57,342 nucleotides of DNA from the NCBI RefSeq assembly GCF_001895925.1, contig NZ_MPPI01000029.1:1-57342 (forward strand). Direction: 5' to 3'. Under the pieces are notes generated by a model that was not told the DNA's origin, made no database searches, and saw only the letters and a program-made list of their open reading frames with translations. The stretch comes from Phormidesmis priestleyi ULC007 (GTDB lineage Bacteria; Cyanobacteriota; Cyanobacteriia; Leptolyngbyales; Leptolyngbyaceae). Position numbers and translations under genes: made by a program. Below are positions 2,832 to 37,620 of the stretch, piece by piece. Every line of letters begins with the position of its first letter. Position 1 is the first letter of the stretch.

Positions 2832-2997
2832 TTCAGGGCTTACGGTTTCAGGACTGAGCTATTTTTTCAATGTTAGCTCCACCCCTGACTTTGAAAAAAA
2901 GATCAAGCCTACGGTTGAATCAGGGTTCGAGGTTAAAACCTGCTCAAATTTTGTGGTTGGGTCGAGGGGGAGTATGATCTCCCTCCCCTCCCAGTTA

Positions 2998-3031
2998 GAT
3001 CCGTGCGTGCAAGTTTTCCCGCACACGGCTC
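2998..3031 (-). ncRNA. Group II intron domain V
   Basis: On the minus strand the 34-nt hairpin has arms GAGCCGTGTGCG and TGCACGCACGGATC around a GAAA-containing cap (GGGAAAACT). The AGC catalytic triad near the 5' side and the two-part helix with bulge are the domain V signature. It begins 9 nt after the maturase stop codon. Confidence 0.88.
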
Positions 3032-3040
3032 CCGATTCAA

Positions 3041-22332: not shown

Positions 22333-22424
22333 AAGTGATTCAACTCAGATGCCTGAGAAGCCGCTATTGACGCTGAGTTTTGCTCGATCGCAGAAGCGCC
22401 GCGCTGGTGTTTCTGCTTTGTTTT

Positions 22425-22597
22425 AACGTGAATTCGATGAAGCTTTTCGCTGCGGTTGCAAATCCGGGCTGCCCCCTAAATCCCCAAAATTGGGGGACTT
22501 TGAATCTAAATTCTGGGCTTGAAGTCCCCTAGAATTGGGGGATTTAGGGGGCTGAAGCCCTGAAAAACGAAGCGAAAAAACTCGTCGGACTGACGTT
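22425..22597. mobile_element. MITE copy 1 (173 bp, palindromic)
   Basis: Terminal inverted repeats start AACGTGAATTCGA and end with the complement of AACGTCAGTCCGA. The core holds GCCCCCTAAATCCCC facing GGGGGATTTAGGGGGC, so most of the element is one long hairpin. Both sides carry the 5-bp direct repeat GTTTT (22420-22424 and 22598-22602), the mark of transposition. No ORF is inside. It resembles copy 2 at 35869-36042. It lies 28 bases before the Ap4A phosphorylase ATG. Confidence 0.85.
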
Positions 22598-22625
22598 GTT
22601 TTAGCTGCCATTATTGCTCAGATTG

Positions 22626-23531
22626 ATGCTACCTGGAACGCTTTGGGCACGGGTGATCGAACAGACGCAGCACGCTTTAGACTGCGGAGCGCTGCGCTCA
22701 ATTCCGACTAACTATGAGATCGTCGAGCAAGACGGGGTACATTTTCTGGTGCGAATCTTAGCAAATCTGACGCGCAAGGAGAAAGCAGCCCAACAGCAAG
22801 CGCAAAAAGCCATCATCTCTGGCGAGGTGATTAATCCTTTTTTACCCTATGAAGAAGACTTGTTTGTTGCCGATTTATCAGAAACCCACTTGTGTTTGCT
22901 AAATAAATTTAATGTCGTAGATTATCACTTGTTGATTATTACGCGTGCTTTTGAAGAGCAAGAAAGTTTGTTGACGCTGCAAGATTTTTTAGCGCTGTGG
23001 ATATGCCTAGCAGAATATGACGGATTAGCTTTTTATAATGCTGGAAGGAATGCAGGCGCAAGTCAACGCCATAAACATTTGCAACTGATTCCATTGCCTC
23101 TTTTATCAGGAACTGCGATCGCGATCGACACTTGGTTAGCCTCAGCCGAGTTTGACGGCCCGATCGCAACGATTCCACAATTGCCATTTGCTCATGGCCT
23201 AATGCGATTATCGAATTGGGCGCAACCTAACCCGGCGGCTGAAGAGACGATCGCTTGTTATCACACGCTGCTTAACCAGCTAAATTTAAAGGCAGGTTCC
23301 GCCTACAACTTATTAGCGACGCGAGAATGGCTGTTGATGGTGCCACGATCGCGAGAAAGTTTTGAGTCAATATCCGTCAATTCTTTAGGGTTCGCAGGCA
23401 GCTTGTTTGTGCGCGATCAGGCTCAACTGCAACTGCTCAAAAATCAGCGACCGATGACGATTTTGACTCAGGTAGCGATGTCGATCGCGGTGCAATGTGA
23501 TGTAGCTAACGTGGAAGTGCAGAAAGATTAA
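22626..23531 (+). CDS. ATP adenylyltransferase / Ap4A phosphorylase
   Basis: This enzyme splits diadenosine tetraphosphate with phosphate to ATP and ADP (APA1/2 type), limiting alarmone-like dinucleotides. The 301-residue protein begins LPGTLWARVIEQTQHALDCG, the family N-terminus. It has NKFNVVDYHLLIITR and the HIT-like active-site motif SQRHKHLQLIPLPL (HxHxQ, catalytic His). Length is usual. ATG 22626 is preferred over TTG 22614. The MITE ends 28 bases upstream, so the native promoter or leader was probably altered or replaced. A cNMP-binding gene follows by about 40 bases. Confidence 0.93.
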   Translation: MLPGTLWARVIEQTQHALDCGALRSIPTNYEIVEQDGVHFLVRILANLTRKEKAAQQQAQKAIISGEVINPFLPYEEDLFVADLSETHLCLLNKFNVVDYHLLIITRAFEEQESLLTLQDFLALWICLAEYDGLAFYNAGRNAGASQRHKHLQLIPLPLLSGTAIAIDTWLASAEFDGPIATIPQLPFAHGLMRLSNWAQPNPAAEETIACYHTLLNQLNLKAGSAYNLLATREWLLMVPRSRESFESISVNSLGFAGSLFVRDQAQLQLLKNQRPMTILTQVAMSIAVQCDVANVEVQKD

Positions 23532-23572
23532 CGTATACTACCCAATGGCTTTTGCACCGTTTGGACGCACCT

Positions 23573-23959
23573 ATGCTAGACCCCGTTAGAACCCTGATCA
23601 TTTTTCAGAGACAGCCTGACCCTCAATCCTTTTCAGCAGGGCAGGCTGTTTTTAAAGAAGGAGAGCCTGGAGATTTGATGTACGGCGTTCTCGAAGGGGA
23701 GATTGCGCTATCGGTGAATGGCAAGATTGTAGAAACGATCGTTCCTGGTGGCGTGTTTGGCATCGGCGCTCTTGTGAGTTCGAGTGTCAGAACCTATACA
23801 GCGATCGCGCAAACCGACTGCAAACTCGCGTTCTTGGATGAAAAACGATTTCTTTTTGTGGTTCAAGAAACCCCGTTCTTTGCGCTAGAAGTGATGAAAA
23901 GCTATTCTGAGCGGTTAAATCGCCTCGTGCGGAGTCTCGTTGAAAAGCTGATCGTTTAG
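23573..23959 (+). CDS. Cyclic-nucleotide-binding domain protein
   Basis: This 128-residue protein is a stand-alone Crp/cNMP-type beta-roll: FSAGQAVFKEGEPGDLMYGV, then LEGEIALSVNGKIVETIVPG, then GVFGIGALVSSSVRTYTAIA. The typical Arg in the phosphate-binding cassette appears as SSSVRTYTA. No helix-turn-helix follows; only a short helix (SERLNRLVRSLVEKL) ends the chain, so it is not a DNA-binding regulator on its own. Ligand binding is possible, not shown. ATG 23573 is used; TTG 23552 is possible. It follows the phosphorylase gene closely. Confidence 0.85.
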   Translation: MLDPVRTLIIFQRQPDPQSFSAGQAVFKEGEPGDLMYGVLEGEIALSVNGKIVETIVPGGVFGIGALVSSSVRTYTAIAQTDCKLAFLDEKRFLFVVQETPFFALEVMKSYSERLNRLVRSLVEKLIV

Positions 23960-24068
23960 AAAAGTTTGACGTTTGAAGCTGCTAAATTTATCCGATCGGA
24001 ACTTTCTAAAGTCCTACTCGTTCAGGTATTATGACGCAAGCTTTCTGACTCTTCTCTATCGACTCGCT

Positions 24069-24761
24069 ATGATTAAGAATTTCAAGACTAGTTTGCTGAC
24101 AATGCTGCCGCTGATTGGGCTGTTTGGTCTGCTAAATCAAGTCTCGATCGCCCAGATGAAGCCAGACAAACTCGGCGAGTTAGACTGGTGGCGATCGAAG
24201 GTAAAAGCCCAAGCGCAATCTAGTCAGAGGCGGCGATTTCACGGCTGTCTGTTTGGAGATTCGATTTCGTCGGGGTTAGGCAACCCATTGGGCAAAGAGA
24301 CCGCTAATTTTGCGATGGGCGGCTTAAGCACCGTGTCGCTGCTAGAACAGCTAAAAACTCTTAAAGCCGCAAATGTGCAGTGCCAAAATGTGATGATCGC
24401 GATCGGCACAAACGATGCCTGGTATTCGATTCGCAATGACGAATTTGTCAGCAATCTCGAACGCATTATTTTGCTGACGCGATCGATGGGAGCCAGCCAA
24501 ATTACGGTCGTTCCTGCTTTTTATTCGACGGTTGAAGCCAGCCGTAACCCTAATGTTGCAGGCACCGTTGAGCGAGTCGAAGAAATCAACGCCTTAATTC
24601 GAGAAGTTGCCGACGTTGAGAATGTTGGGCTTGTCACTGATGAAATTGATCCATTGTTTGACGATCGTAGCCTCAGACAAGACCTGACCTTCGACGGAGT
24701 TCACCTAAACGAAAAAGGTCAAAAAATCTATAAGAGAATTGTCCTAGCCATTCTTAATTAA
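24069..24761 (+). CDS. SGNH/GDSL hydrolase, secreted
   Basis: This 230-residue protein has a signal peptide (MIKNFKTSLLTMLPLIGLFG...IAQ). Block I is LFGDSISSGLG with the nucleophile Ser. Gly of block II is in GGLSTVS, block III is AIGTNDAW with the oxyanion Asn, and block V ends in DGVHLNEKGQ with the catalytic Asp-x-x-His. It is probably a periplasmic esterase or deacetylase acting on a sugar or lipid ester; substrate unknown. I choose ATG 24069 because the signal peptide starts there; the open frame begins at 23973. Confidence 0.88.
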   Translation: MIKNFKTSLLTMLPLIGLFGLLNQVSIAQMKPDKLGELDWWRSKVKAQAQSSQRRRFHGCLFGDSISSGLGNPLGKETANFAMGGLSTVSLLEQLKTLKAANVQCQNVMIAIGTNDAWYSIRNDEFVSNLERIILLTRSMGASQITVVPAFYSTVEASRNPNVAGTVERVEEINALIREVADVENVGLVTDEIDPLFDDRSLRQDLTFDGVHLNEKGQKIYKRIVLAILN

Positions 24762-24770
24762 TCAAGAGGG

Positions 24771-24792
24771 GCAGGGCATTGCCGTGCTCTCC
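24771..24792. repeat. Copy of the GGGCA..TGCC intergenic repeat
   Basis: GGGCATTGCCGTGC sits after the SGNH gene. The core GGCA-TTGCCGTGC resembles the copy at 41457. It is short and degenerate. Confidence 0.35.
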
Positions 24793-24829
24793 GTTGCTCT
24801 GTCACGTCCACAAATCAAATGGGTATGAT

Positions 24830-25255
24830 TCAAGGATTATCATAGTAGTTTGGCTCACTTTGGGATGAAGCAAAACTGACGGTTGCCGATGGAAAGACTG
24901 GCGGCTGAGAGTTTTGAGGACTGAAACCCAGTAAGCGATCGACCCCTCGCAAATAAGTGATGGCACGGAGCTTGGGCTGTTTTTGCCACTCAGCACGCGT
25001 CACTCGTACATAGAGAATCGGGGCAGTGAGTCCTTCGCGCTCTGCTAAGATTCTCATTTCAACGACTGTTGTTGAAGGGTTGGCAAAGCCTTGTTTGGCT
25101 AGCCGTTCTGCCAGCAATTCTGCTTGCTCAATTAGCCCGCTAAAAGATTGGTTGGCAGCAGACGTGAGAGTATAGTCTAGCTGCTTTGTCTCAGCGTAAG
25201 CTGGGGCGACAAAACTCGACAAAAGCATTCCCATCAATAGCAGCTTGATACGCAT
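24830..25255 (-). CDS. Secreted protein of unknown function
   Basis: This 141-residue protein starts with a clear signal peptide, MRIKLLLMGMLLSSFVAPAYA, cleaved after AYA. The mature part has ANQSFSGLIEQAELLAERLA, then STTVVEMRILAEREGLTAPI, then LYVRVTRAEWQKQP. It ends in a Pro/Ser-rich disordered tail (FSPQNSQPPVFPS). It is likely periplasmic. I do not recognise the family. It diverges from the MFS gene (about 120 bases apart). Confidence 0.75.
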   Translation of the reverse strand: MRIKLLLMGMLLSSFVAPAYAETKQLDYTLTSAANQSFSGLIEQAELLAERLAKQGFANPSTTVVEMRILAEREGLTAPILYVRVTRAEWQKQPKLRAITYLRGVDRLLGFSPQNSQPPVFPSATVSFASSQSEPNYYDNP

Positions 25256-25376
25256 TACTGAAGACTTGTTTAGGTTTTCATAGGTCTTTAGTTAACGTAT
25301 CACTGGTGATTTGTTTCTCCGTGTTGTCTGGCACACATGGATTGCTTTAGTCGAGATTAATTAGACCGCCCTGACG

Positions 25377-26570
25377 ATGGTTGAAATGAATCGAACTTTT
25401 TGGATTACGGCTCTCGTTGCGTTTATTAATGCGCTTAGCTTGACGATTCTGATTCCCGTTCTTTATTTATATGGCAGACAATTTGGTTTAAATGATTTTC
25501 AAACGAGTTTGTTGTTTTCGATTTATGCGATCGCCCAATTTTTTGCAACACCGATTATTGGCAAACTCTCCGATCGCTTCGGGCGCAAGCCACTTTTAAT
25601 CATCAGTCTGGCAGGAACGGTAATCGCTAATCTGATCGCAGGCACTGCGACTACAGCAAGCATTTTGTTTATTGCCCGATTTCTAGACGGCATTACGGGA
25701 GGAAACGCATCGGTTGCTCAAGCCATCATCTCGGATGTGACAACGCCTGCTGACCGCGCTAAAGGCTTCGGAATCTTTGGGGCAGCCTTTGGTTTAGGGT
25801 TTGTGTTAGGCCCCGCGATCAGTTTGTTTGCTCAACAGATTTCACTCGGAGCAGCTTTTTTGGTATCAGGCGCGATCGCGTTCATCGCGCTATTGATCAC
25901 ACTCTTCTTTTTGCCCGAAACGCTGCAACACAAAGCCGAGCGATCGCACAATATCTTTGATCTCGGTTTAGAAAATCTAATCAAAGGATTGACTATTCCT
26001 AGAGTGAGCATTCTGCTGATCATTAACTTTTTTATTGGCACAACCTTCACGATCTTTACTTATGCCTTTCAGCCTTATTTTTTGCATGTACTCAATCAAG
26101 ACAATCGTGCTCTCACGATGATGTTTTTTATGTTTGGCGTGTTGGGAGTGATCATGCAAACTTGGGGAGTATCAGTGCTTAATCGCAAATTCAACCTAGT
26201 GAACATCTTGTTGTTTGCCTTGTTCATTCGCAGCTTATCGTTTGTCTTAATGTCGATTTGGGCAAACATTACTTATTTTGTGATCGTTAGCATTCTCTTT
26301 TCTCTGTTTAACTCTTTAGTTCAGCCAATGATCAATACATTGATCTCTCTAAATTCAAATTCTCAAGATCAAGGTACGGTGATGGGAATTAATTCATCTT
26401 ATTTAAGTATCTCAAATGCGATCGGGCCGGTAATCGCTGGACTGATGGTCAATCAAGCCGATCCGACTACTTATCGTTATCCTTTGTATTTGGCGGGGGT
26501 TCTCACCTCGATCGTATTAGTGTTTGCGATCGTGACGCGCCGACGATATGCAGCGATCGTGAACGAATAA
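25377..26570 (+). CDS. MFS transporter (TetA-like, 12 TM)
   Basis: This 397-residue permease starts with helix LVAFINALSLTILIPVLYLY. It has the MFS loop 2-3 motif GKLSDRFGRKPLLI and a second half with weaker repeats. About 12 membrane helices are visible. Members are proton-driven efflux pumps of antibiotics or other small molecules; substrate unknown. The 12-TM drug:H+ antiporter layout is the best guess. The ATG at 25377 is followed by a second ATG at 25386. Confidence 0.9.
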   Translation: MVEMNRTFWITALVAFINALSLTILIPVLYLYGRQFGLNDFQTSLLFSIYAIAQFFATPIIGKLSDRFGRKPLLIISLAGTVIANLIAGTATTASILFIARFLDGITGGNASVAQAIISDVTTPADRAKGFGIFGAAFGLGFVLGPAISLFAQQISLGAAFLVSGAIAFIALLITLFFLPETLQHKAERSHNIFDLGLENLIKGLTIPRVSILLIINFFIGTTFTIFTYAFQPYFLHVLNQDNRALTMMFFMFGVLGVIMQTWGVSVLNRKFNLVNILLFALFIRSLSFVLMSIWANITYFVIVSILFSLFNSLVQPMINTLISLNSNSQDQGTVMGINSSYLSISNAIGPVIAGLMVNQADPTTYRYPLYLAGVLTSIVLVFAIVTRRRYAAIVNE

Positions 26571-26727
26571 TATTAAGTCATAGTCAATATGACTTAGAGC
26601 AAGAGAAGCTGAAACAAACGGGAATATTTGCCGAACCTGATCCCCACAGAATAATTTTCGTCCTCAATTTTGCTTTACAATTTTGGCAACTCTTCCCAGT
26701 TTTTCAACCTCTACACCCGAAAGTCTT

Positions 26728-28317
26728 ATGAGCATTGGATATGTTGCCCTCGTCTTGCACGCCCACTTGCCCTTCGTTCGTCACCCCGAAAGTGATTATG
26801 TGCTAGAGGAAGAATGGCTTTATGAAGCTATTACTGAAACATACATTCCTCTGCTGCAAGTCTTTGAGGGTTTAATTCGCGATGGTGTAGATTTCAAACT
26901 CACCATGAGCATGACTCCGCCACTAGTGTCAATGTTGCTCGATCCGCTTTTGCAAGACCGCTATGATGCACACCTCGCGCAGCTTGAAGAACTCGCCGAG
27001 ATGGAAATCGCTCGCCACGCCCAAAATGGGCACATGAAATATCTGGCAGAACACAATGCGAGAGAATTTAACGCGGCGCGTGTCTTTTGGGAGAAATACG
27101 ATCGCAACCTCGTTAAAGCCTTTAAGCAATACCTCGATAGTGGCAACTTGGAGATCATGACCTGTGGCGCGACTCACGGTTATCTGCCCTTAATGAAGAT
27201 GTATCCCCAAGCGGTGTGGGCACAGATTCAAGTTGCCTGTGAACATTATGAGCAGACCTTCGATCGTCCTGCTAACGGCATTTGGTTGCCAGAATGCGCC
27301 TATTACGAAGGAGTCGATCGCTTATTAGCAGATGCCGGGTTGCGCTACTTCCTCACCGACGGGCACGGCATTCTCTACGCCCGTCCGCGCCCTCGGTTTG
27401 GCACCTACGCCCCGATCTTTACCGAAGCAGGAGTCGCCGCCTTTGGTCGCGATCAGGAGTCCTCGCAGCAAGTCTGGTCATCTGAAGTTGGCTACCCCGG
27501 TGCCGCCGAATATCGAGAGTTTTACCGCGATTTAGGCTGGGATGCTGAATATGACTATATCAAGCCTTATGTCATGCCTAACGGTCAGCGTAAGAATGTG
27601 GGCATCAAATATCACAAGATCACGGGTAAAGGGTTAGGGCTGTCTGACAAACAACTCTACGATCCCTACTGGGCAAAAGAAAAGACGGCCGAACACGCCG
27701 CAAACTTTGCCTACAATAGAGAGCGGCAAGTCGAGCATCTCCACAACATGATGCAGCGTCGGCCGATCATTGTGTCGCCCTATGATGCCGAGCTATTTGG
27801 GCATTGGTGGTATGAAGGCCCGTGGTTTATTGACCATTTGTTCCGCAAGTCGTGGTTTGACCAAGGCACTTATGATATGACGCACTTAGCCGACTATCTA
27901 AAAGCAGAACCCACTCAACAAGTTTGCCGTCCGTCTCAGTCGAGTTGGGGCTACAAAGGCTTTCATGAGTATTGGCTCAACGAAACCAATGCCTGGATCT
28001 ATCCACACTTGCACAAAGCCGCAGAACGGATGATCGAACTCTCTAAAAAAGAGCCTGAAGACGCGTTAAGCTGGCGGGCGCTCAATCAAGCGGCGCGAGA
28101 ACTGCTGTTAGCACAATCGTCTGACTGGGCGTTTATTATGCGAACGGGAACAATGGTTCCTTATGCGATTAGACGAACTCGATCGCACCTGATGCGCTTC
28201 AACAAACTCTATGAAGACATCAATCAGGGCAAAATCGATTCGGGTTGGATTGAGAAAGTCGAAGCGATCGATAACATCTTTCCCGACATCAACTACCGCG
28301 TTTACCGTCCGCTCTAA
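26728..28317 (+). CDS. GH57 family 1,4-alpha-glucan branching-type enzyme
   Basis: This 529-residue glycoside hydrolase family 57 enzyme (DUF1957 type) builds alpha-1,6 branches in glycogen-like glucan or cleaves alpha-glucans. The N-terminal strand LVLHAHLPFVRHPE is the first GH57 motif. Catalytic Glu in GIWLPECAYYEG lies near residue 189, and the Asp in SPYDAELFGHWWYEG near 353. The C-terminal helical domain is present (LNQAARELLLAQSSDWAFIM). Length is normal. The start ATG 26728 follows the usual family N-terminus MSIGYVALVLHAHLP; TTG 26683 would add a Ser/Thr tail. Confidence 0.92.
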   Translation: MSIGYVALVLHAHLPFVRHPESDYVLEEEWLYEAITETYIPLLQVFEGLIRDGVDFKLTMSMTPPLVSMLLDPLLQDRYDAHLAQLEELAEMEIARHAQNGHMKYLAEHNAREFNAARVFWEKYDRNLVKAFKQYLDSGNLEIMTCGATHGYLPLMKMYPQAVWAQIQVACEHYEQTFDRPANGIWLPECAYYEGVDRLLADAGLRYFLTDGHGILYARPRPRFGTYAPIFTEAGVAAFGRDQESSQQVWSSEVGYPGAAEYREFYRDLGWDAEYDYIKPYVMPNGQRKNVGIKYHKITGKGLGLSDKQLYDPYWAKEKTAEHAANFAYNRERQVEHLHNMMQRRPIIVSPYDAELFGHWWYEGPWFIDHLFRKSWFDQGTYDMTHLADYLKAEPTQQVCRPSQSSWGYKGFHEYWLNETNAWIYPHLHKAAERMIELSKKEPEDALSWRALNQAARELLLAQSSDWAFIMRTGTMVPYAIRRTRSHLMRFNKLYEDINQGKIDSGWIEKVEAIDNIFPDINYRVYRPL

Positions 28318-28398
28318 TCTACAAACTCTTCAGATCACGGTTAGCGATTAGACAAAGCATCTTCAAAACAAATACTGCTAATCACTAACCGATGATTT

Positions 28399-28698
28399 CT
28401 ATCGCGCTACTGTGTTTGCTAGCGCTAACGTTGCTAAGAAACCTAAAATATGCCCAAAACTCATCGAAGCTAAAAATCCTGCAACGCTAATGTCGTTAAA
28501 CAGCGATTTTGAGAAAGGCAGAGGCATTTTAGCTCCCGTATGGGGATATTTAATGGTGCGGCTAGCAATTAATAAAACAAGCAGACAAGCTCCGATTATG
28601 ACCGGAGTTCCTTCCCAGTGCCAAAGCTCGGTGCCAGGAATCGCAAATTGAGCAACAAAAAATAGAGAACTGATCACAGGAATTTCTCTCCTTCGCAT
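28399..28698 (-). CDS. psaK: Photosystem I subunit PsaK (X)
   Basis: This 99-residue thylakoid protein has two membrane helices ([17 protein letters not shown] and [20 protein letters not shown]). The SFGHILG motif near the end is the PsaK hallmark. PsaK sits at the periphery of photosystem I and helps bind antenna and state-transition partners. The N-terminus is atypical: no obvious PsaK leader, and [19 protein letters not shown] before helix one. A PsaK2-like paralogue is possible. It converges with the GH57 gene. GAGGA precedes the ATG by about 8 bases. Confidence 0.82.
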
Positions 28699-29115
28699 CT
28701 GTAGTTCCTCATCATTTTTCCGCGATCGCTCAGATTCAACCTCCTCCTGATGTAAGACTTTAACTCTAACTATCGAGAGATTTTTCGACGTTGGACTAAT
28801 TCTAGAGATGTTCTCTTAATTACACCACTTCCTCTTTGGGAGTTGCGATCGTGCAATCAGAAGTCGGGTGAGCATTTGTTGTTATAAATTGGTAGACACC
28901 GAGACGATGGAACGTTCCTGTCCGACAAACAAGCTACGAGTAGTCTACTTTGAGCCATTGAGTTAGACTCTCTCCCAAGAGACCAACGGGTATAGTTGAG
29001 CTATCTTTCATAAGACTGGGTTTATATTTCGCTCGTGTTGCAACCTAAAATCAAGGTGAACTTGATGTTGATTATATTCAAGCAAACCTTGTTCAATCTC
29101 CCTTATTACAGAGGG
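28699..29115. other. 417-bp intergenic region, no gene
   Basis: It lies upstream of psaK and downstream of the oxidoreductase, both on the minus strand, and should carry the psaK promoter. I see one perfect 10-bp palindrome, GGAACGTTCC (28909-28918), and no RNA gene, riboswitch or intact ORF. Confidence 0.6.
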
Positions 29116-30072
29116 TTAGATTGGCTGTGCGATCGTAATCACAACTTTGCCAACAGTCCGTTCGCTTTCACTGTAAGCGTGAGCAGCCGCGATCTCGGAT
29201 AGGGGATAAGTGCGATCGATCACCGATCGAACTTTGCCTGCTTCAATTTGCTCTTTTAAATAGGACAAATCTGCACTGTTGGATTTGAGCAAAATCACTT
29301 TGTATTTCTGACCTGGCAACAGAGACGTAAAAAAACTCTGGAGAAAATTGCCAGGATACGGCTGTGTTGTGATGTATACACCCTGCGATCGCAAGACCGA
29401 TTTGCAGTCGGACAAAGAACGGTTGCCAATCACATCAAATACAATGTCGTACTTCGCTGAGTCCTGAGTGAAATCTTGCTGAGTGTAGTCAATCACGCGG
29501 TCTGCGCCCAAACTCTGGACGAGATCTATATTTTTGTTGCCACAAACGCCTGTAACCTCCCCGGCTCCTAACACCTTGGCAATCTGAACAGCAAATGTGC
29601 CAACACCACCCGATGCCCCATTGATCAATACCTTCTGCCCGACTTCAAGCTGCCCTTGATCCCGTAGCGCTTGTAAAGCCGTCATTGCCGCCAGAGGAAC
29701 CGCTGCCGCCTGCTCGTGAGTCGCATTAGACGGTTTCAGAGCCGCTACTTTTTCAGAAACTGCTGCATACTCAGCGTAGGCTCCTCCGGTTAGTTGATCT
29801 AGTCGAGCATAAATCAAATCTCCGGGCTTGAATTGAGTCACCTGACTACCCGTTTCAATCACCTCACCGGATACGTCAAACCCCAAGATCATTGGAAACT
29901 TGCTGCCCGTGAGAATTTTGAGTATTCCCTTTCGCATTTTCCATTCAACTGGATTGATACTGCTGGCATATACTTTAACCAGCAGTTGGTCGGGCTTAAT
30001 CTGGGGTTGCTCTACGTCTGCAACCTGCAACACATCAGGTGCACCATAGCTATAGATAACGGCGGCTTTCAT
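29116..30072 (-). CDS. MDR-type NADP-dependent oxidoreductase (quinone reductase-like)
   Basis: This 318-residue medium-chain dehydrogenase/reductase lacks the catalytic zinc Cys. The N-terminus is MKAAVIYSYGAPDVLQVADV. The NADPH fold has QKVLINGASGGVGTFAVQIA near residues 143-162, giving Gly-rich G-ASGGVG. Members reduce quinones, enones or aldehydes in the cytoplasm with NADPH. The substrate cannot be deduced. Length is typical. No operon partner; a roughly 300-bp gap separates it from the divergent Gfo/Idh gene. Confidence 0.9.
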   Translation of the reverse strand: MKAAVIYSYGAPDVLQVADVEQPQIKPDQLLVKVYASSINPVEWKMRKGILKILTGSKFPMILGFDVSGEVIETGSQVTQFKPGDLIYARLDQLTGGAYAEYAAVSEKVAALKPSNATHEQAAAVPLAAMTALQALRDQGQLEVGQKVLINGASGGVGTFAVQIAKVLGAGEVTGVCGNKNIDLVQSLGADRVIDYTQQDFTQDSAKYDIVFDVIGNRSLSDCKSVLRSQGVYITTQPYPGNFLQSFFTSLLPGQKYKVILLKSNSADLSYLKEQIEAGKVRSVIDRTYPLSEIAAAHAYSESERTVGKVVITIAQPI

Positions 30073-30383
30073 ACTATTTCCAAGCTTGTTCTGAATGTTG
30101 CCCGTAGTGAGAATAGGCAGTTGCCCGTCCTTTCAACACCTTTCATCAGAATCTAGGACTCTTTCATACTGTTTGTATTTCTCCAAATGCAACTCTATCG
30201 ATCGTTAGAGATAGCGCTGATTCATCCAATAGTCAAGTAGACCATTCAACCACTCATTCATCTTATGTATTCCTAAGCACAGCTTTTCTCGCTTTAACTC
30301 ATCAACCAGTATCCTTCAAAAGTGAGATGAGAAGATATCTTTGGCTGCTTAGGATAAACACGTAAACTGTGAGCACATTCAGT

Positions 30384-31514
30384 ATGGCAGCCAATCAGAA
30401 CGCTTCTGCTAGCCGCAAAATTCGTTACGCCGTTGTTGGGTTAGGTTGGTTTGCTCAAGCCGCCGCGTTGCCCTCATTTGACCATGCCGAGAATTCTGAA
30501 CTGGTCGCGATCGTCTCAGACGACCCCACAAAACGAGACGAGCTGGGTAAGCAATACAACATTCAACGAACTTACTCCTACGAGCAATATGAAGACTGTC
30601 TCAACAGTGGTGAAGTAGATGCCGTTTATATTGCCTTGCCAAATCATCTGCATCGTGAGTATACCGTGCGGGCTGCTAACGCAGGGGTTCATATCTTGTG
30701 CGAAAAGCCGATGGCAGTCACCGTAGATGAGTGTGAAGCGATGATTCAGGCTGCTAAGGACAATCACGTGAAGCTGATGATTGCTTACCGCCTGCATTTA
30801 GAAGAAGCCAACTTGCAGGCAGTAGAAACGGTGCGATCGGGCAAAATAGGCGAACCGCGCATCTTCAACTCGGTGTTTACTCAACAAACGGTAGCAGGCA
30901 ACATTCGCCTTGAGAAAGATAAGGGTGGCGGCACTCTGGATGATGTTGGCGTTTACTGCATTAATGCCGTTCGCTATTTGTTCCAGGATGAGCCGATCGA
31001 GGTGTTTGCAACCAGCGCCAACAATGGTGAGGAACGCTTCAGCGAAGTTGATGAGATGACGAGTGCGATTCTGCGCTTTCCAGACGATCGACTGGCAGCG
31101 TTTACCGTTAGCTTTGGAGGTGGAAGGGTTGCTACCTATCAAGTTGTTGGCACAAAGGGTGATTTGCGGGTTGATTCGGCTTATGGCACTCAAGGCGAAA
31201 TCAAGCATACTCTGACGATCGACGGTGAGAAGCAGGAGCGATCGTTTGCACCGCATGATCAGATTGCTGCTGAATTTGTCTATTTCTCCGACTGCATTTT
31301 GCAGAACAAAGAGCCAGAGCCGTCAGGTCAGGAAGGGCTGATTGATGTTCAAATTATTCGGGCGCTTTACCGTTCGATCGAGACAGGTAGTTTTGTGAAA
31401 CTTGATACTCCCGATCGTCAGCAACGCCCCACTGCCGACCAGACGATCGAGCGTCCTCCTGTTCAAGAGCAGCCTGAGCTGGTTCATGCGGCTGACCCTT
31501 CTGGCAAGTCGTAA
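30384..31514 (+). CDS. Gfo/Idh/MocA family oxidoreductase
   Basis: This roughly 376-residue NAD(P)-dependent sugar or inositol-type dehydrogenase has the dinucleotide fold IRYAVVGLGWFAQAAALPSF. The EKPMAV motif (CEKPMAVTVDECEAMIQAA) carries the catalytic Lys. The second half has GGGTLDDVGVYCINAVRYLF, the substrate-site Asp/Tyr region. An extra C-terminal tail of about 40 residues (TPDRQQRPTADQTIERPPVQ...) is Pro/Gln-rich and probably disordered. Start ATG 30384. A 41-codon ORF and an MBL hydrolase follow on the same strand. The pathway is unknown. Confidence 0.92.
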   Translation: MAANQNASASRKIRYAVVGLGWFAQAAALPSFDHAENSELVAIVSDDPTKRDELGKQYNIQRTYSYEQYEDCLNSGEVDAVYIALPNHLHREYTVRAANAGVHILCEKPMAVTVDECEAMIQAAKDNHVKLMIAYRLHLEEANLQAVETVRSGKIGEPRIFNSVFTQQTVAGNIRLEKDKGGGTLDDVGVYCINAVRYLFQDEPIEVFATSANNGEERFSEVDEMTSAILRFPDDRLAAFTVSFGGGRVATYQVVGTKGDLRVDSAYGTQGEIKHTLTIDGEKQERSFAPHDQIAAEFVYFSDCILQNKEPEPSGQEGLIDVQIIRALYRSIETGSFVKLDTPDRQQRPTADQTIERPPVQEQPELVHAADPSGKS

Positions 31515-31562
31515 TTTAATCAGCGATTTGAAGTAAAAATACAAACAAGGGAGTCAACGATC

Positions 31563-31688
31563 GTGAATAGTGTTCTAGCAGAATCGCTGATGACAAAAGT
31601 TCAGGGCGCGATCGGTAGCGTCTTGCCCGATACGGTTACGTCTGAGATGAGCCGCAAGCTGAATCAGCCAGGTTCAGCCAACAAGTAA
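31563..31688 (+). CDS. Small 41-residue protein, unknown
   Basis: GTG 31563 starts a 41-residue chain, MNSVLAESLMTKVQGAIGSV with LPDTVTSEMSRKLNQPGSAN after it, ending at TAA 31686-31688. AAGGGAG sits 8 bases upstream, a good ribosome site. It is amphipathic, with helix-like spacing of Leu/Val/Met and a short basic tail. It lies between the Gfo/Idh and MBL genes on one strand. It may be coding, but such a short ORF could be chance. Confidence 0.45.
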   Translation: MNSVLAESLMTKVQGAIGSVLPDTVTSEMSRKLNQPGSANK

Positions 31689-31725
31689 CGGACTAGAACA
31701 AGACATCGTTTCTTGAAAATCACTT

Positions 31726-32589
31726 ATGCACATTCATCATCTCAACTGTGGCTGCATGTGTCCGATCGGTGGGTCACTTTTCGACGGCTTCAGCCGTAGC
31801 TTATTTTCTCACCTCGTCTGCCACTGCCTGCTGATCGAGACGAGCCAAGGGCTTGTTCTAGTTGATACTGGTTTCGGATTGTGTGATGTCCAGTCGCCTT
31901 ATTCACGGCTCAGTCCGTTTTTTGTGAAGTTTAATAACATCCAGTTCGATCGCAAATATACGGCGATCGAACAGATTAAACAGCTTGGATTTTCCCCCAG
32001 CGACGTGCAACACATTGTGCTAACCCACCTCGATTTCGACCATGCAGGCGGTCTAGAAGATTTCCCGGAAGCAACCGTGCATGTGATGCAAACTGAAGTT
32101 GAGACAGCCCGCGATCGTCAGGGCTTCGTCGCGAGTCGGCGTTATCGCCCAAAGCAGTGGGATGAAGTCAAAAGCTGGAAATACTATGCGGCAGGAGGCG
32201 AACCCTGGTTTGGTTTTGAAGCAGTCCGCGACCTGGATGGATTGCCGCCAGAGATTCTGCTGATTCCACTAACGGGACACACGCACGGTCATGCAGGCGT
32301 TGCCATTCAAACACCAGAGGGTTGGCTGCTTCATGCAGGCGATGCTTATTTCTACCGACACGAGATGGATGCTTCAAATCGTCACTGCACACCGGGACTG
32401 CGTGCCTATCAGTGGATGATGGAGGTGGATCGTAAGGCCCGACTCCACAACCAAGATCGGCTCTATGCGCTCTCGATCGATCACCGCGATGTTCGCCTCT
32501 TTTGTAGTCATGATGCTGTTGAGTTCAAAACGTTTGCCGAGCAGGTTGATAGGTCTCAAGCCGAGCAGCTTATGCAGCAAAAAAGTTAA
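31726..32589 (+). CDS. MBL-fold metallo-hydrolase (AHL lactonase-like)
   Basis: This 287-residue two-metal hydrolase has the motif LTHLDFDHAGG (HxDxDH with the first His in THLD) near residue 108. Further His/Asp ligands are in HTHGHAGV, HAGDAY and the terminal SIDHRDVRLFCSHD. The N-terminal region MHIHHLNCGCMCPIGG is typical of a lactonase or related subclass. Known relatives open N-acyl homoserine lactone rings or hydrolyse phosphate or sulfur esters. Without a search I cannot assign the substrate. A cysteine-rich start (CGCMC) is notable. Confidence 0.85.
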   Translation: MHIHHLNCGCMCPIGGSLFDGFSRSLFSHLVCHCLLIETSQGLVLVDTGFGLCDVQSPYSRLSPFFVKFNNIQFDRKYTAIEQIKQLGFSPSDVQHIVLTHLDFDHAGGLEDFPEATVHVMQTEVETARDRQGFVASRRYRPKQWDEVKSWKYYAAGGEPWFGFEAVRDLDGLPPEILLIPLTGHTHGHAGVAIQTPEGWLLHAGDAYFYRHEMDASNRHCTPGLRAYQWMMEVDRKARLHNQDRLYALSIDHRDVRLFCSHDAVEFKTFAEQVDRSQAEQLMQQKS

Positions 32590-32626
32590 GACCCTCACCC
32601 CAGTAAGACGGGTTTTAATTTCGGCA

Positions 32627-33682
32627 CTACTCATGGTCTTGCTCAATTCGCGCAACGCCCGTTTTAGGGTAGTAGTTCGCCAAAATCTGATGATGAGAAT
32701 AGCCATGCTCTGCTAAATTTAGTGCCCCTAACTGGCTCATTCCCTTACCTTGAAACGCTTCTGCCACAATGTCATCAGACGCTGCATAGAGCGACTCGAC
32801 AATGCCGCCGCGATAGCTCACAAACTCTCCTGCTGTCGCATCTACTGCTTGCTGAGTGCGATCGGCTTCCTTGGCAAGTCCGCTATAGACTTGGTAATAT
32901 TCATCGGCACCCATTTGATAGAGCGAGTTTGCAGGTTTGAAATAATAGGTCAAGGCATACGATCGAGCCGCCACCGATTGAGCTTTAAGCGCATTCATGT
33001 GCCAACTTGGAGACACCTCACTCGCCACTACACTAGACAGATAGTGCCGCAAGTTGACATAGTTCACCACCCAGACTCGTCCCTTTTGAGCAGCCAGCAA
33101 AAACTTACCGCGATAAGGCTTGTCGCCTAAATACAGCACTCCTCCCTCCGCAGGTTCCACCCAAACCAAGGCTGGAAGTTGCCACGAACCTAAATCAAGT
33201 CCGCTGCCTCCCGCTTGCGCTGTATAGGCTTTTCCGGCTGATAGCTGGTGTAGAGAACGCCCCTTCTCATCGATTAAATCGGCACCTGCCGAAGAGCCGA
33301 TCGTTGCACTGCTGACCCCGATCGCAATCCCTATCTGCATCTCAATAAATGAATCTACTGTCGCCGCAGATGCCGCAAACGCTGCCTTGGCTCGTTGATT
33401 AATGGCCGCTTGCTCTTTAGTAAACGTTGCCGGGTTCACAGGAATTGGACTCACAGCAATTGGTTTAGGTGAGGTCGAAGCCTTTGGTTTTGGAGATTTA
33501 GCAGCAGAGGGCAGTGGAACCGATGCCGTCGGTGAGGGTGCAGTAGTCGTTTGACTCGCCTGAGGTGCAGGTTGTTCTGGGTGCTGATTTAACGCCAGTC
33601 CTGCAAGTGGAATCAGTCCCAGGAGGGGCAACAATAACCAGGGACGTTGTTGAAACCACTTGAGAATCTGCTGTTGTGCCAT
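32627..33682 (-). CDS. SpoIID/LytB domain protein, membrane-anchored
   Basis: This 351-residue protein has an N-terminal helix (WLLLPLLGLIPLAGLAL) as anchor and a Pro/Ser/Thr-rich linker (TTTAPSPTASVPLPSAAKSP). The SpoIID domain follows with the hallmark SWHMNALKAQSVAARSYALT and the end GKGMSQLGALNLAEHGYSHH, then QILANYYP. SpoIID proteins trim cell-wall glycan (lytic transglycosylase-like); in cyanobacteria the role is probably peptidoglycan remodelling in the periplasm. No operon partner. The gene ends about 40 bases from the converging MBL gene. Confidence 0.9.
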   Translation of the reverse strand: MAQQQILKWFQQRPWLLLPLLGLIPLAGLALNQHPEQPAPQASQTTTAPSPTASVPLPSAAKSPKPKASTSPKPIAVSPIPVNPATFTKEQAAINQRAKAAFAASAATVDSFIEMQIGIAIGVSSATIGSSAGADLIDEKGRSLHQLSAGKAYTAQAGGSGLDLGSWQLPALVWVEPAEGGVLYLGDKPYRGKFLLAAQKGRVWVVNYVNLRHYLSSVVASEVSPSWHMNALKAQSVAARSYALTYYFKPANSLYQMGADEYYQVYSGLAKEADRTQQAVDATAGEFVSYRGGIVESLYAASDDIVAEAFQGKGMSQLGALNLAEHGYSHHQILANYYPKTGVARIEQDHE

Positions 33683-33758
33683 AAGTTTACGTTCGGTTTG
33701 TTTGAAGAGTATATTCAGAATCCTGTGTAGCTGTAGCGACTCGCTGCGATCGAGTCCG

Positions 33759-33869
33759 CCAGGAAATTAATTTCCTGGCTCATAGCGAAAGTGCTCTGAA
33801 GAACACTGAATCAGGATTTCAGTCCATTGAAAGGGACTTCTGCTGTTAGCCCGGAAATTAATTTCCGGG
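33759..33869. repeat. Paired palindromes around GAAATTAATTTC
   Basis: CCAGGAAATTAATTTCCTGG (33759-33778) and CCCGGAAATTAATTTCCGGG (33850-33869) are two perfect 20-bp palindromes with the same 12-bp core GAAATTAATTTC, 71 bases apart. They sit between the SpoIID gene and a binding-protein gene on the same strand. The second is followed by GTGGGCTTTTAA and may act as a terminator. Confidence 0.7.
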
Positions 33870-33928
33870 TGGGCTTTTAAGTCAACAAGCACGACTGAAT
33901 TTACAATCCCTTTTGTCAGTTAACCCGA

Positions 33929-35755
33929 TCAGTCTTCTTTAATTCTAAGTTCGTCGATGTTCCAAAGCCCCCAACTGGGCAAACCAGAATATTTTAGACC
34001 TTGGACGCGATCGCGGGCCACCATCAATGCTGAGTCATTAACTAAATGGATCACAGGCAATTGTTCTTGCACAATTTTCTGAAACTGGGCATAAATCTTC
34101 TGGCGTTTTGCCTGATCGAGTTCTCTTGCGCCTTCAATGAACAAACGATCGATGTCTTTTTCCCAGTCGTTTGCCTCCCATCCTTGGATCGGTTGCTGTC
34201 CCGCCTGCTGTTTGAGATTAAACGAGTGAGAACCGCCACCACTCATCCAAAGGTTGGCCGCGCCGTGAGGTTCTACGCCTCCGGTAAACCCGATCATGTG
34301 GGCATCCCAATCTCGCGAAGTCGAAGTCTTGTCAATCAGCGTGTTGAAATTGATTGGGTTAAAGTCTAACTGAATGCCGATTTTGCTCAAGTCTTGTTTA
34401 ATTTGAGCCCCGATCGCTTCTCTAACTTTATTGCCTGCATTCGTAATCAACGTAAACCGAACTCGATTGCCTTCCGAATCCAACAACTGTCCTTGAGTGT
34501 TGGGTTTAAATCCGGCACTTTTTAGTAACTCGCGCGATCGTGCCAGATTATAGTCATAAGTCTTTAAACCATCTTTAGGCGACAGAAAAAACGGACTTTG
34601 TACCGTAATCGGTGAGTTTTGAATCGTGCCCAATCCGCGAAAGATATTGTTGTTCATTTTGTCGCGATCGATGGCATACGCCACAGCTTGACGAAACGCT
34701 AAAGTGTTGAACCAGCGAGACTTAATCGGGTCTACGATCGGCTTCCCATTTTTAGCAGTTGCTTTATTGAGATTGAACGCCATGTAGAGCGTTCCTGACC
34801 ACGCGCCCCCATTTTTCAGCTTAAAATTTCCTCGCTGCTCTTCCCGCTTCAGCAGCGAAAAATATTCTGGACGCAGCGGGCGCGCGTCTCCCATAACATC
34901 GAGATCGCCCGAACGAAATCGCAGCAATTGCGTATCGACATTCTCGATAAATTGCCAAATGATCCGATCGACATAAGGCAACCGATTTCCCTGAGCGTCT
35001 TTGCGCCAATAATAAGGATTGCGACGATAAACCAATCGCTGCCCACCGAGAAAGCTCTCAATCTGATACGCCCCATTCACGACCAGCGTTTTAGGATCGG
35101 TGTTGGTTCCCCAAGTCGAGAGAAACTGCGGATTGCCATCACTTGCGATCGTTCGCACCGACTCGCCGAGAACGTGCTTCGGCAAAATAACAATATTATC
35201 GGGTGCGCCAGAAAGGGCATTCAACAAAGGCGCAAATGGCTCCGGTAGCGTGAACTCAACGCGCAAGTCATCCAGCTTTTTCACCGTAGGAAACGCGCCT
35301 TGCAACCCAACTTTCAGGCTGTCCTTCCAATCGGTCGGAATCTTAGGGTTAAAAATCGTTTCAAACGTAAACACCACATCATCTGCGGTCAACGGCTGTC
35401 CGTCTGACCACTTCAACCCTTCGCGCAGCTTGAACACGATGCGCTTGCGATCTTCCGAAATCTGCCACGACTCCGCCAACGCTGGCTGAATCTTACCCGT
35501 CAGCCCGTCTGATTTTGTCAGCCCCTCAAAGCAAAACAGCGAAATATTGGGAAACTCTTGAATCAGCGCCGGGTTAAACGTCTTGGGATCAGTCAGCGTG
35601 CTGAGAACCAATTGAGGCACCTGAGCCGCTTGAGTTCTAAACAGATGAGGATTGCAGCCTGACAGCCCAAGCGACAGAACGATCGCCATTCCCAAGCTGA
35701 CAAATCTGACAAACTCGCAGCGGACTTGCGACGTAAAGTTGAAGATCATGGGCAA
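33929..35755 (-). CDS. ABC transporter solute-binding lipoprotein, family 5 (peptide type)
   Basis: This 608-residue periplasmic binding protein of the DppA/OppA class has a lipoprotein signal with LSLGLSGCNP (lipobox L-S-G-C). The mature chain has TLTDPKTFNPALIQEF and AESWQISEDRKRIVFKLREG, then LKWSDGQPLTADDVVFTFE, the family signature, and AFRQAVAYAIDRDKMNN. A paralogue at 37734-39512 has the same features; both flank a PhoD gene. It should feed a DppB/C-type permease such as 19474, but no ATPase is here. Confidence 0.93.
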   Translation of the reverse strand: MPMIFNFTSQVRCEFVRFVSLGMAIVLSLGLSGCNPHLFRTQAAQVPQLVLSTLTDPKTFNPALIQEFPNISLFCFEGLTKSDGLTGKIQPALAESWQISEDRKRIVFKLREGLKWSDGQPLTADDVVFTFETIFNPKIPTDWKDSLKVGLQGAFPTVKKLDDLRVEFTLPEPFAPLLNALSGAPDNIVILPKHVLGESVRTIASDGNPQFLSTWGTNTDPKTLVVNGAYQIESFLGGQRLVYRRNPYYWRKDAQGNRLPYVDRIIWQFIENVDTQLLRFRSGDLDVMGDARPLRPEYFSLLKREEQRGNFKLKNGGAWSGTLYMAFNLNKATAKNGKPIVDPIKSRWFNTLAFRQAVAYAIDRDKMNNNIFRGLGTIQNSPITVQSPFFLSPKDGLKTYDYNLARSRELLKSAGFKPNTQGQLLDSEGNRVRFTLITNAGNKVREAIGAQIKQDLSKIGIQLDFNPINFNTLIDKTSTSRDWDAHMIGFTGGVEPHGAANLWMSGGGSHSFNLKQQAGQQPIQGWEANDWEKDIDRLFIEGARELDQAKRQKIYAQFQKIVQEQLPVIHLVNDSALMVARDRVQGLKYSGLPSWGLWNIDELRIKED

Positions 35756-35868
35756 CGAAGGAATTAAGGGCGCAACTAGATGTTGATCTCAGATATCACG
35801 GATGATAGTCTGAGATCAATTTTGACAGACTACTCGTCCATCTGCTATCTAGCCGCCCCCACTTCATT

Positions 35869-36042
35869 AACGTGAGTTCGATAGAAGTGGTTCACTCCGA
35901 TGATGAATTCGGGAAGCCCCCTAAATCCCCCAATTTTGGGGGACTTTGAACCAGAAATTTTGGCTTGAAGTCCCTCAAGTTGGGGGATTTAGGGGGCAGA
36001 AGCCGCTGAGAACGAAGCGAAAAAACTCGTCGAACTCACGTT
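35869..36042. mobile_element. MITE copy 2 (174 bp, palindromic)
   Basis: AACGTGAGTTCGA at the left end and its exact complement at the right end form a perfect 13-bp terminal inverted repeat. The core again has GCCCCCTAAATCCCCC facing GGGGGATTTAGGGGGC. A 5-bp direct repeat TCATT (35864-35868 and 36043-36047) flanks it. It has no ORF and is very similar to copy 1. The right flank overlaps the PhoD stop codon (TAA at 36046-36048), so the element landed exactly at the gene's end. Confidence 0.9.
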
Positions 36043-36045
36043 TCA

Positions 36046-37620
36046 TTAAGCCCGTTGAGCGCCCGGTTTACCATCCTCGACAACAAAAGATGCCACCGTG
36101 CTGATCGTGGCTTCGGGTTTGCGAATGGTGGAAACGACCCGATAATCACTTTGCCAATGCTTGCGATTTAGGTCACACCGGACATATCCTCGCAAAGCAC
36201 CGTTAAAAAACTTGGTGTGAGGGTTGTTAGAGAGCGCCAGCGTGACGGGCTGAATAAACTGAGTCGGAAAGCCTGAAGAAATTGAGGTTGACACAAACTC
36301 TGTCCCGATCGTCCGCGACTCTGGTCGATTAAAGTCACGTTTGATATCGTGAACCCAACTAGAGTGAATGTCACCCGCCAGCACGATCGGATTAGAGGGT
36401 TGTTGCCGATCAAGAAACGCTAACACACGCTCACGGGCTGCCACATAGCCATCCCATTGATCGGTGTTAAACACTTGCATCTCTGGGCGCGGATCAAAGT
36501 CAAACTGCGAAAACATGACTTGTTGCGCGATGATGTTCCAACGGGCAGGCGATCGCTGCAATCCCTCAAACAACCAGCGCTCTTGGGTCTGCCCAGTCAT
36601 CGTCGCGTTGGGATCAAGTGCCGCTTCACAAAGCGGTTTGAGTCCATCGTCGCAGGGCTGATTCGTGCGATATTGACGAGTGTCTAAAATATTAAACTGA
36701 GCCAGATCACCAAACTGCAATCGGCGATATAGGCGCAAATCAGAACCGTTAGGGAGCGATAAGCGACGCAGAGGCATGTGTTCATAATAAGCTTGATAAG
36801 CGGCAGCTCGTCGGGTCAGAAATTGGTCGATCGCGTCGTTGTTTTCAGAGATATTGCCCGCGTAGTTGTTTTCGACTTCGTGATCATCCCAAGTGACCGC
36901 CCAAGGAAATGCAGCATGAGCCGCCTGAAGGTTGGGATCTCCTTTGTAGAGTGCGTAACGGTTACGATAATCTGCAAGGCTGACAATTTCAGGACTGTTG
37001 TGCTGACGTGGGCCTCCGGGTTCGGGCCCATATTCATAAATATAGTCACCCACATGCACCACTAGGTCGAGATCTTCCTCTGCAACGTGCTTATAAGCGG
37101 TGTAGTAACCGTTTTGCCAGTCTTGACAGTTGACCAACGCAAAGCGCAAGCGATTTAGACGCTGATTCCTGGCGGGTGCTGTGCGAGTTCGACCGATCGG
37201 ACTCATTTCATTGCCTGCTTTAAATCGATACCAATAATGACGACCCGGTTGCAGACCGCGCACATCTACATGAACGGAATGGGCAAACTCTGCGATCGCG
37301 AGTTCGGTTCCAGATTTTACGACTCGCTTCATGCCTTCGTCCGTAGCAATTTGCCATCGTACGGGCACACTATGATTTGGCATCCCACCTCCTTTGAGAG
37401 GATCGGGAGCAAGCCGCGTCCACAAGACGATGCCATCAGCGAGTGGATCACCGGAGGCAACTCCCAGCGTAAAGGGATACCCTGAAAATCGAGGTTGAGC
37501 AATGACTTGCTGCGGAAGTTGACTCGCGATCGCAATGCCTGTCAGAACACCAGCGCCCCGAAGCAGGTCACGTCGCTTCAAATCCGCCGATAATAGACGC
37601 GAGGAAGTGTACCAGTTCAT
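36046..37620 (-). CDS. phoD: PhoD-type alkaline phosphatase, Tat-exported
   Basis: This 524-residue calcium/iron phosphodiesterase/phosphomonoesterase belongs to the PhoD family. The N-terminus has the Tat signal with RRDLLRGAGVLTG. Motifs in order: NCQDWQNGYYTAY, VHVGDYIYEYG, VTWDDHEVENNY and VLAGDIHSSWVHDI, the metal-site signatures. Cells use it to release phosphate from esters outside the cytoplasm. It lies between two family-5 binding proteins on the same strand, about 110 bases from the upstream one. I see no Pho box. Confidence 0.93.
   Translation of the reverse strand: MNWYTSSRLLSADLKRRDLLRGAGVLTGIAIASQLPQQVIAQPRFSGYPFTLGVASGDPLADGIVLWTRLAPDPLKGGGMPNHSVPVRWQIATDEGMKRVVKSGTELAIAEFAHSVHVDVRGLQPGRHYWYRFKAGNEMSPIGRTRTAPARNQRLNRLRFALVNCQDWQNGYYTAYKHVAEEDLDLVVHVGDYIYEYGPEPGGPRQHNSPEIVSLADYRNRYALYKGDPNLQAAHAAFPWAVTWDDHEVENNYAGNISENNDAIDQFLTRRAAAYQAYYEHMPLRRLSLPNGSDLRLYRRLQFGDLAQFNILDTRQYRTNQPCDDGLKPLCEAALDPNATMTGQTQERWLFEGLQRSPARWNIIAQQVMFSQFDFDPRPEMQVFNTDQWDGYVAARERVLAFLDRQQPSNPIVLAGDIHSSWVHDIKRDFNRPESRTIGTEFVSTSISSGFPTQFIQPVTLALSNNPHTKFFNGALRGYVRCDLNRKHWQSDYRVVSTIRKPEATISTVASFVVEDGKPGAQRA

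Follow-up and report, generated by a model that had tools for sequence, protein, structure and literature searches.

Two Palindromic MITE Copies in the Window

The window, i.e., the whole stretch of DNA that was analyzed, is the complete 57,342-base contig NZ_MPPI01000029.1 (C111) of the draft genome of Phormidesmis priestleyi ULC007 (5.68 Mb in 118 contigs). It carries two copies of a miniature inverted-repeat transposable element (MITE) on the plus strand. Copy 1 (22426..22596, 171 bp; ends ACGTGAATTCGA and TCGGACTGACGT) lies between 7-bp target duplications TGTTTTA at 22419..22425 and 22597..22603, and copy 2 (35870..36041, 172 bp; ends ACGTGAGTTCGA and TCGAACTCACGT) between duplications TTCATTA at 35863..35869 and 36042..36048. 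The element has the outline ACGTSARTTCGA...TCGAAYTSACGT with ACGT as its first and last bases, and the terminal inverted repeats ACGTSARTTCGA are present in both copies with one mismatch at one end of copy 1. In the center of each copy lies a palindromic core, at 22472..22550 in copy 1 (CCCCCTAAATCCCC ... GGGGATTTAGGGG) and at 35916..35997 in copy 2, a module which is common to other MITE families. The core motif GGGGATTTAGGGG (up to 2 mismatches) has four matches within the window, all inside the two copies. The predicted folds are very stable, with -88.4 kcal/mol and a z score of -9.9 for the RNA of copy 1 and a z score of -10.0 for the DNA of copy 2. The window sequence thereby confirmed what a sequence-only reading of this DNA had described, namely two related copies with matching ends at these positions, a CCCCCTAAATCCCC hairpin core and a full-length imperfect palindrome. 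That reading also saw no transposase inside, and rightly so: 171–172 bp are too short for a transposase gene, and the elements do not qualify as autonomous IS982 insertion sequences (IS), which encode one. A search of Rfam at the gathering score gave no match for the MITE, the matches in the window being one tRNA and one group II intron.

A genome-wide search with the end motif, which the sequence-only reading had proposed, gave 257 matches for AACGTGAGTTCGA (up to 1 mismatch), compared with 12 when the motif was reversed as a control, and many of the copies had direct repeats. With two ends per MITE, this suggests about 120–130 copies in the genome, a number estimated from the end matches, as scoring of whole elements covered 40 of 337 and 40 of 345 candidates. 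A 25-base pattern of the right end matched ten stretches of named genomes from four organisms, all cyanobacteria: Phormidium tanganyikae FI6-MK23 (six), Phormidesmis priestleyi BC1401 (two), Myxacorys almedinensis A (one) and Cyanobacteria bacterium FACHB-63 (one).

Element Boundaries, Target Duplication and Empty Sites

The sequence-only reading had assigned 5-bp direct repeats to the two copies and had counted the outermost A and T as element bases. Both assignments had to be revised: the duplications are 7 bp long and these two bases belong to them. In the genome, 66 spans were extracted with the ends set at ACGT...ACGT (overlapping spans in L026 and L060 included), and an exact 7-bp direct repeat was found in 37 of them. 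After 2000 shuffles of the right flanks, the exact 7-bp matches had a mean of 1.2 and a maximum of 6. Exact duplications of 8 bp and of 6 bp occurred in two spans each. Thirteen spans, in which the flanking base differs from the usual A or T, are informative for the boundary, and eight of these repeat all 7 bases, by which a 5-bp duplication was rejected. Because the duplicated target mostly has T as its first and A as its last base, which resemble element bases, only 5 bp were apparent. From the flank counts of the spans, the target consensus is AT-rich and near TAAWTTA. Three copies whose left end is truncated or foreign, L015 (C62:194049-194212), L022 (C113:22189-22355) and L220 (C27:49100), are flanked by exact direct repeats of 26, 24, and 23 bp, respectively, instead of 7 bp, as if they were the product of an aberrant event.

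The site of copy 1 is empty in a genome of the same genus (G001), where the flanks align continuously around a single TGTTTTA. At the copy 2 locus, the DNA of G001 beyond the solute-binding protein (SBP) gene differs from that of the ULC007 genome. Another copy (C55:2046 in ULC007, C5:2029 in G001) occupies one site in both genomes, with flank identities of 280 and 287 of 300 bases each; since it is common to both, its insertion predates their split. The sequence-only reading hinged on the occurrence of empty orthologous sites and of further copies with direct repeats, and both were found. Its claim that the MITE moved by transposition is supported by duplications in many copies, the empty site found for copy 1 and an IS with equal ends (see below). 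The two window copies are real MITEs moved by transposition. That the repeats might be palindromes of the repetitive extragenic (REP) or bacterial interspersed mosaic element (BIME) kind, or recombination debris which was never transposed as a unit, is highly improbable: their palindromic form and mostly intergenic location (33 of 50 spans) would fit this, but the 7-bp duplications and the IS982 ends speak against it and the empty site already contradicts it.

An IS982-Family Partner

The genome was searched for DDE transposases, which gave 25 PF01609 matches, and then scanned for MITE ends beside them. Four loci have the end motif beside the transposase, namely L093, L099, L111, and L114, and the same four gave the strong matches to PF13612. 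The other DDE transposases were rejected as partners; among them, L097 and L106 show one lone end-like motif each. L093 is an IS982-family IS of 1031 bp with the ends ACGTGAGTTGGACGG and ACGTGAGTTCGATGG (ACGTGAGTTGGA to inverted ACGTGAGTTCGA). Its product scored 180.5 bits against NF033520 (IS982 family transposase), at a cut-off of 130, and 192.8 bits against PF13612, while no relative of the transposase was found in the Protein Data Bank (PDB) at E 0.001. The terminal ~12 bases of the MITEs match the L093 ends, and ACGTGAGTTSGA ends are present at all four loci. These four are the copies or fragments of an IS982 transposase in the ULC007 genome, L099, L111, and L114 being pieces that reach a contig end or pass into other sequence.

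A related transposase was present in 40 of the 97 genomes searched, ULC007 included. Among 30 IS982 loci (L122–L151, nearly all from related genomes, with L122 from ULC007), nine combine ACGT-type ends and an exact duplication of 7 bp or more and two more have one of 6 bp; the end pairs were ranked partly by duplication length, which favors cases with duplications. Seven of the nine have ACGTSAGTTCGAC ends like the MITE and two have ACGTSAGTTCGGG ends. The duplication length of 7 bp in the MITEs is thus shared with IS982 elements, for which it was at least 7 bp at these nine loci. The sequence-only reading had suggested looking for an IS with the same ends and a 5-bp duplication; such ends were found on IS982 elements, with a duplication of 7 bp in place of 5. 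A 206-bp element with ends of the IS982-B type (ACCTGAGTTCGGG) adjoins an IS982-A MITE at L021 (C80:80530-83702), where a TATTT(A) repeat is found at each border.

Several observations weigh against this partnership. Exact 7- or 8-bp duplications are lacking in 27 of the 66 MITE spans, and L093, the one near-complete IS982 copy of the genome, has no target duplication. In L093, the reading frame runs into a TGA, with 37 codons remaining to the next stop; L099, the other piece spanning that place, breaks off at the same residue, and no intact transposase of the L093 type was seen in the draft assembly. In addition, the interior of the MITE has no detectable similarity to the IS (scores of 17 and 20, shuffled means of about 19). 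Because the transposase frame is interrupted near the C-terminus in both copies spanning that place, present mobility from the IS982 transposase of this genome is unproven. An origin of the MITE as an internal deletion of the IS was not supported, as its interior is without detectable similarity to the IS.

The Palindromic Core Under Several Kinds of Ends

The ~80-bp CCCCCTAAATCCCC...GGGGATTTAGGGGG palindrome also occurs in two or more other MITE families of the genome with unrelated ends, AGACCTCCTG (AGACC family, 3-bp duplications) and CTACNGTGTACAC (CTAC family). A core search independent of the ends gave 459 raw matches, for which the reversed control was uninformative, CCCCCTAAATCCCC backwards being the same kind of string. 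Thirteen cores from the first 30 of the 459 matches, on four contigs and with cores that had their only exact half-motif on the reverse strand left out, were examined: six have two IS982-A ends, one has one such end, one (L220) is a likely hybrid and five have other ends. The AGACCTCCTG ends of the AGACC family gave 64 genome matches (1 in the control); the core was present in 14 of 16 spans, and 3-bp duplications were found in eight of the 16 and no duplication in the other eight. The CTACNGTGTACACACAAG ends of the CTAC family gave 35 genome matches (1 in the control) and the core was present in all 13 spans. The target rule of the CTAC family is not established because exact duplications (of 6 and 10 bp) occurred in only two of these 13 spans. 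The sequence around CTAC copies is often GC-rich and hairpin-like. Also seen were a smaller type with GTGGATT ends and one of the IS982-B type (L204), and GTGGATTAAATAACCTG / GTGGATTTATTAAGGTG ends surround the core at L047, L217, L218, and L278. When plasmids were searched with a single element each of the AGACC and CTAC families, only partial core matches came up, with no annotated feature beneath them; those at L296 and L297 (pSYSM and pSYSA of Synechocystis PCC 6803) and at L298 (a Pseudanabaena plasmid), all from distant cyanobacteria, lie between annotated genes.

Consensus alignments across the three main families (IS982-A, CTAC, and AGACC) reached scores of 115–128, with a shuffled maximum of 29. 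The similarity spans the core and, in the pairs with IS982-A, also part of the arms. At the sequence level, the palindromic center proved to be not IS982 sequence; it is a module which other MITE families of the same genome carry as well. In total, 92 cores came from loci fetched mostly via their ends, so that the shares of end types are biased. Mean core identity was 0.867 within IS982-A, 0.835 within CTAC and 0.829 within AGACC, and 0.831 (IS982-A/CTAC), 0.812 (IS982-A/AGACC), and 0.823 (CTAC/AGACC) between families, where the best single core pairs reach 97.5%; the means between families thus lie close to those within them. In the core tree, at least ten changes of end type are needed, whereas three labels need only two; the tree, based on ~80 columns, has weak resolution, and tree error may account for part of the ten changes. 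One hybrid (L291) has one CTAC end and one IS982-A end (B982/CTAC in one script label); the single A982+CTAC core of a second labelling was taken to be the same locus. In L220, the probable hybrid, the left arm is CTAC-like and its end is degraded, and the right arm is of the IS982-A type. One core labelled CTAC+GTGGATT may be either hybrid or nested, and three IS982-A copies that carry a G or similar variant (labelled A982/B982) were excluded from the hybrid count.

A passage of cores between end types is opposed by the following observations. The nearest neighbor was of the same end type for 70 of 84 cores (of another type for 14), the highest mean identity is that among IS982-A cores (0.867), the ten label changes stand against 18–22 in 100 shuffles and few of the 92 cores are hybrids. 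Taken together, the cores appear to partly follow their ends yet to cross over repeatedly. The core might also be a mobile element of its own which inserted separately into several MITE families, the MITEs being hosts of a nested element. This is possible, though we rather doubt it: core palindromes without visible ACGT-type ends in related genomes (e.g., L164, L165, and L167) and the partial core matches in Synechocystis and Pseudanabaena plasmids would fit such an origin, but the similarity of IS982-A to the AGACC and CTAC consensus runs past the core into the arms and the hybrids carry one arm of each family.

Very probably, both window copies are non-autonomous MITEs with IS982 ends, and their palindromic core is a module passed between end types. 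In this model, an IS982 DDE transposase acting in trans would bind the ACGTSARTTCGA ends and join them to a target whose strands are cut 7 bp apart. The most likely route by which the module would change its end type is recombination inside similar cores, and such recombination would yield hybrids with one end of each kind. In this way, ends would have been exchanged between MITE families.

Placement of the Copies Relative to Genes

For the placement relative to genes, 16 of the 66 spans, in which fewer than six of the seven duplication bases match, were set aside, and plain open reading frames (ORFs) of at least 100 codons were taken as genes. Of the 50 spans used, 33 are intergenic, 13 have the duplication over a stop codon and four lie inside an ORF. 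Of the target-matched sites taken from the same DNA, 70% are within ORFs, and 10–13.5% of the remainder are at a stop codon. Outside ORFs, overlap with a stop codon was thus observed in 13 of 46 spans against 10–13.5% expected (p 0.0005–0.008). Copy 2 is an example, as its right duplication holds the TAA stop (36046-36048, minus strand) of a gene for a PhoD-like phosphatase (36046-37620). The simplest reading is that insertions which restore the stop codon are tolerated. The very stable fold, together with the 13 stop-codon overlaps among the 50 copies with near-perfect duplications and their excess outside genes, would also suit a core kept for a function, such as a transcript 3′ end, mRNA stability or a nucleoid site, with the transposon ends carried along by selection. 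We consider this unlikely, as the excess may just reflect the purging of harmful insertions, the duplication restoring the stop, and the counts rest on plain ORFs.

Around copy 2 and the PhoD-like gene, two SBP_bac_5 solute-binding genes (33929-35755 and 37734-39512) are located on one strand. An inverted repeat with 40-nt arms around GGAAATTAATTTCC (33753-33875) lies between a SpoIID-like gene and the SBP gene. The group II intron match (RF00029, 52.1 bits) is at 2956-3033 on the minus strand of the window.

Comparison With Known Elements and Meaning of the Finding

The IS982 family comprises elements of ~1 kb with ends starting with AC, one DDE transposase and direct repeats of variable length, and for its Nostoc member ISNsp1 a repeat length of 6 bp is given in the sections available of the family review (PMC7335449). 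The MITE described here differs from these IS by the lack of a transposase, and words beginning with “mite” are absent from the main text of that review. An IS982-derived MITE of ~240 bp from Cardinium cOegib was tied by its authors to a parental IS (PMC9769881). As far as the available text of that paper goes, the two are alike in ends very near those of an IS982-family element, in many copies and in the lack of a transposase, but here the interior is not IS sequence and is common to MITEs of other end types. In the accessible part of PMC3542288, 147 MITEs are given for Anabaena sp. 90, likewise short, mostly intergenic, folded and multi-copy, with no similarity to the IS ends of that genome reported; here, in contrast, the IS family and the duplication length were identified. 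Nezha, by its title as cited in PMC10969869, is a cyanobacterial MITE of the same short, folded, multi-copy kind. The intrastrand triplex or G-rich repeats of cyanobacteria are described, in the portion available of PMC4666352, without target duplications or transposon ends. In the open-licence literature searched, neither the core strings nor one core under several end types were found, nor, among the 15 of 27 matches listed, anything relevant to shared-core or chimeric MITEs, and the combination of MITE, IS elements and Leptolyngbya gave no match. MITEs, and IS982 MITEs among them, are already known, and what is new is that a single genome carries the same core within different kinds of ends. 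The sequence-only reading was right in kind and wrong in duplication length, and the transposase family is now named. The swap of ends around one core is the part that merits follow-up.

Through these observations, an abundant repeat is connected with one specific family of transposases and with a target rule of 7 bp. More broadly, the ~80–120-bp palindromic module may be cargo moved by several unrelated transposition systems via end-swapping recombination, a proposal for and against which we see about equal grounds. If it is true, the module reaches IS982-type sites (7 bp, AT-rich), the sites of a 3-bp system (AGACC) and hairpin-like sites (CTAC), and it could outlive the loss of any single transposase. 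MITEs may then persist by switching the transposase on which they rely, which is testable from genome sequences.

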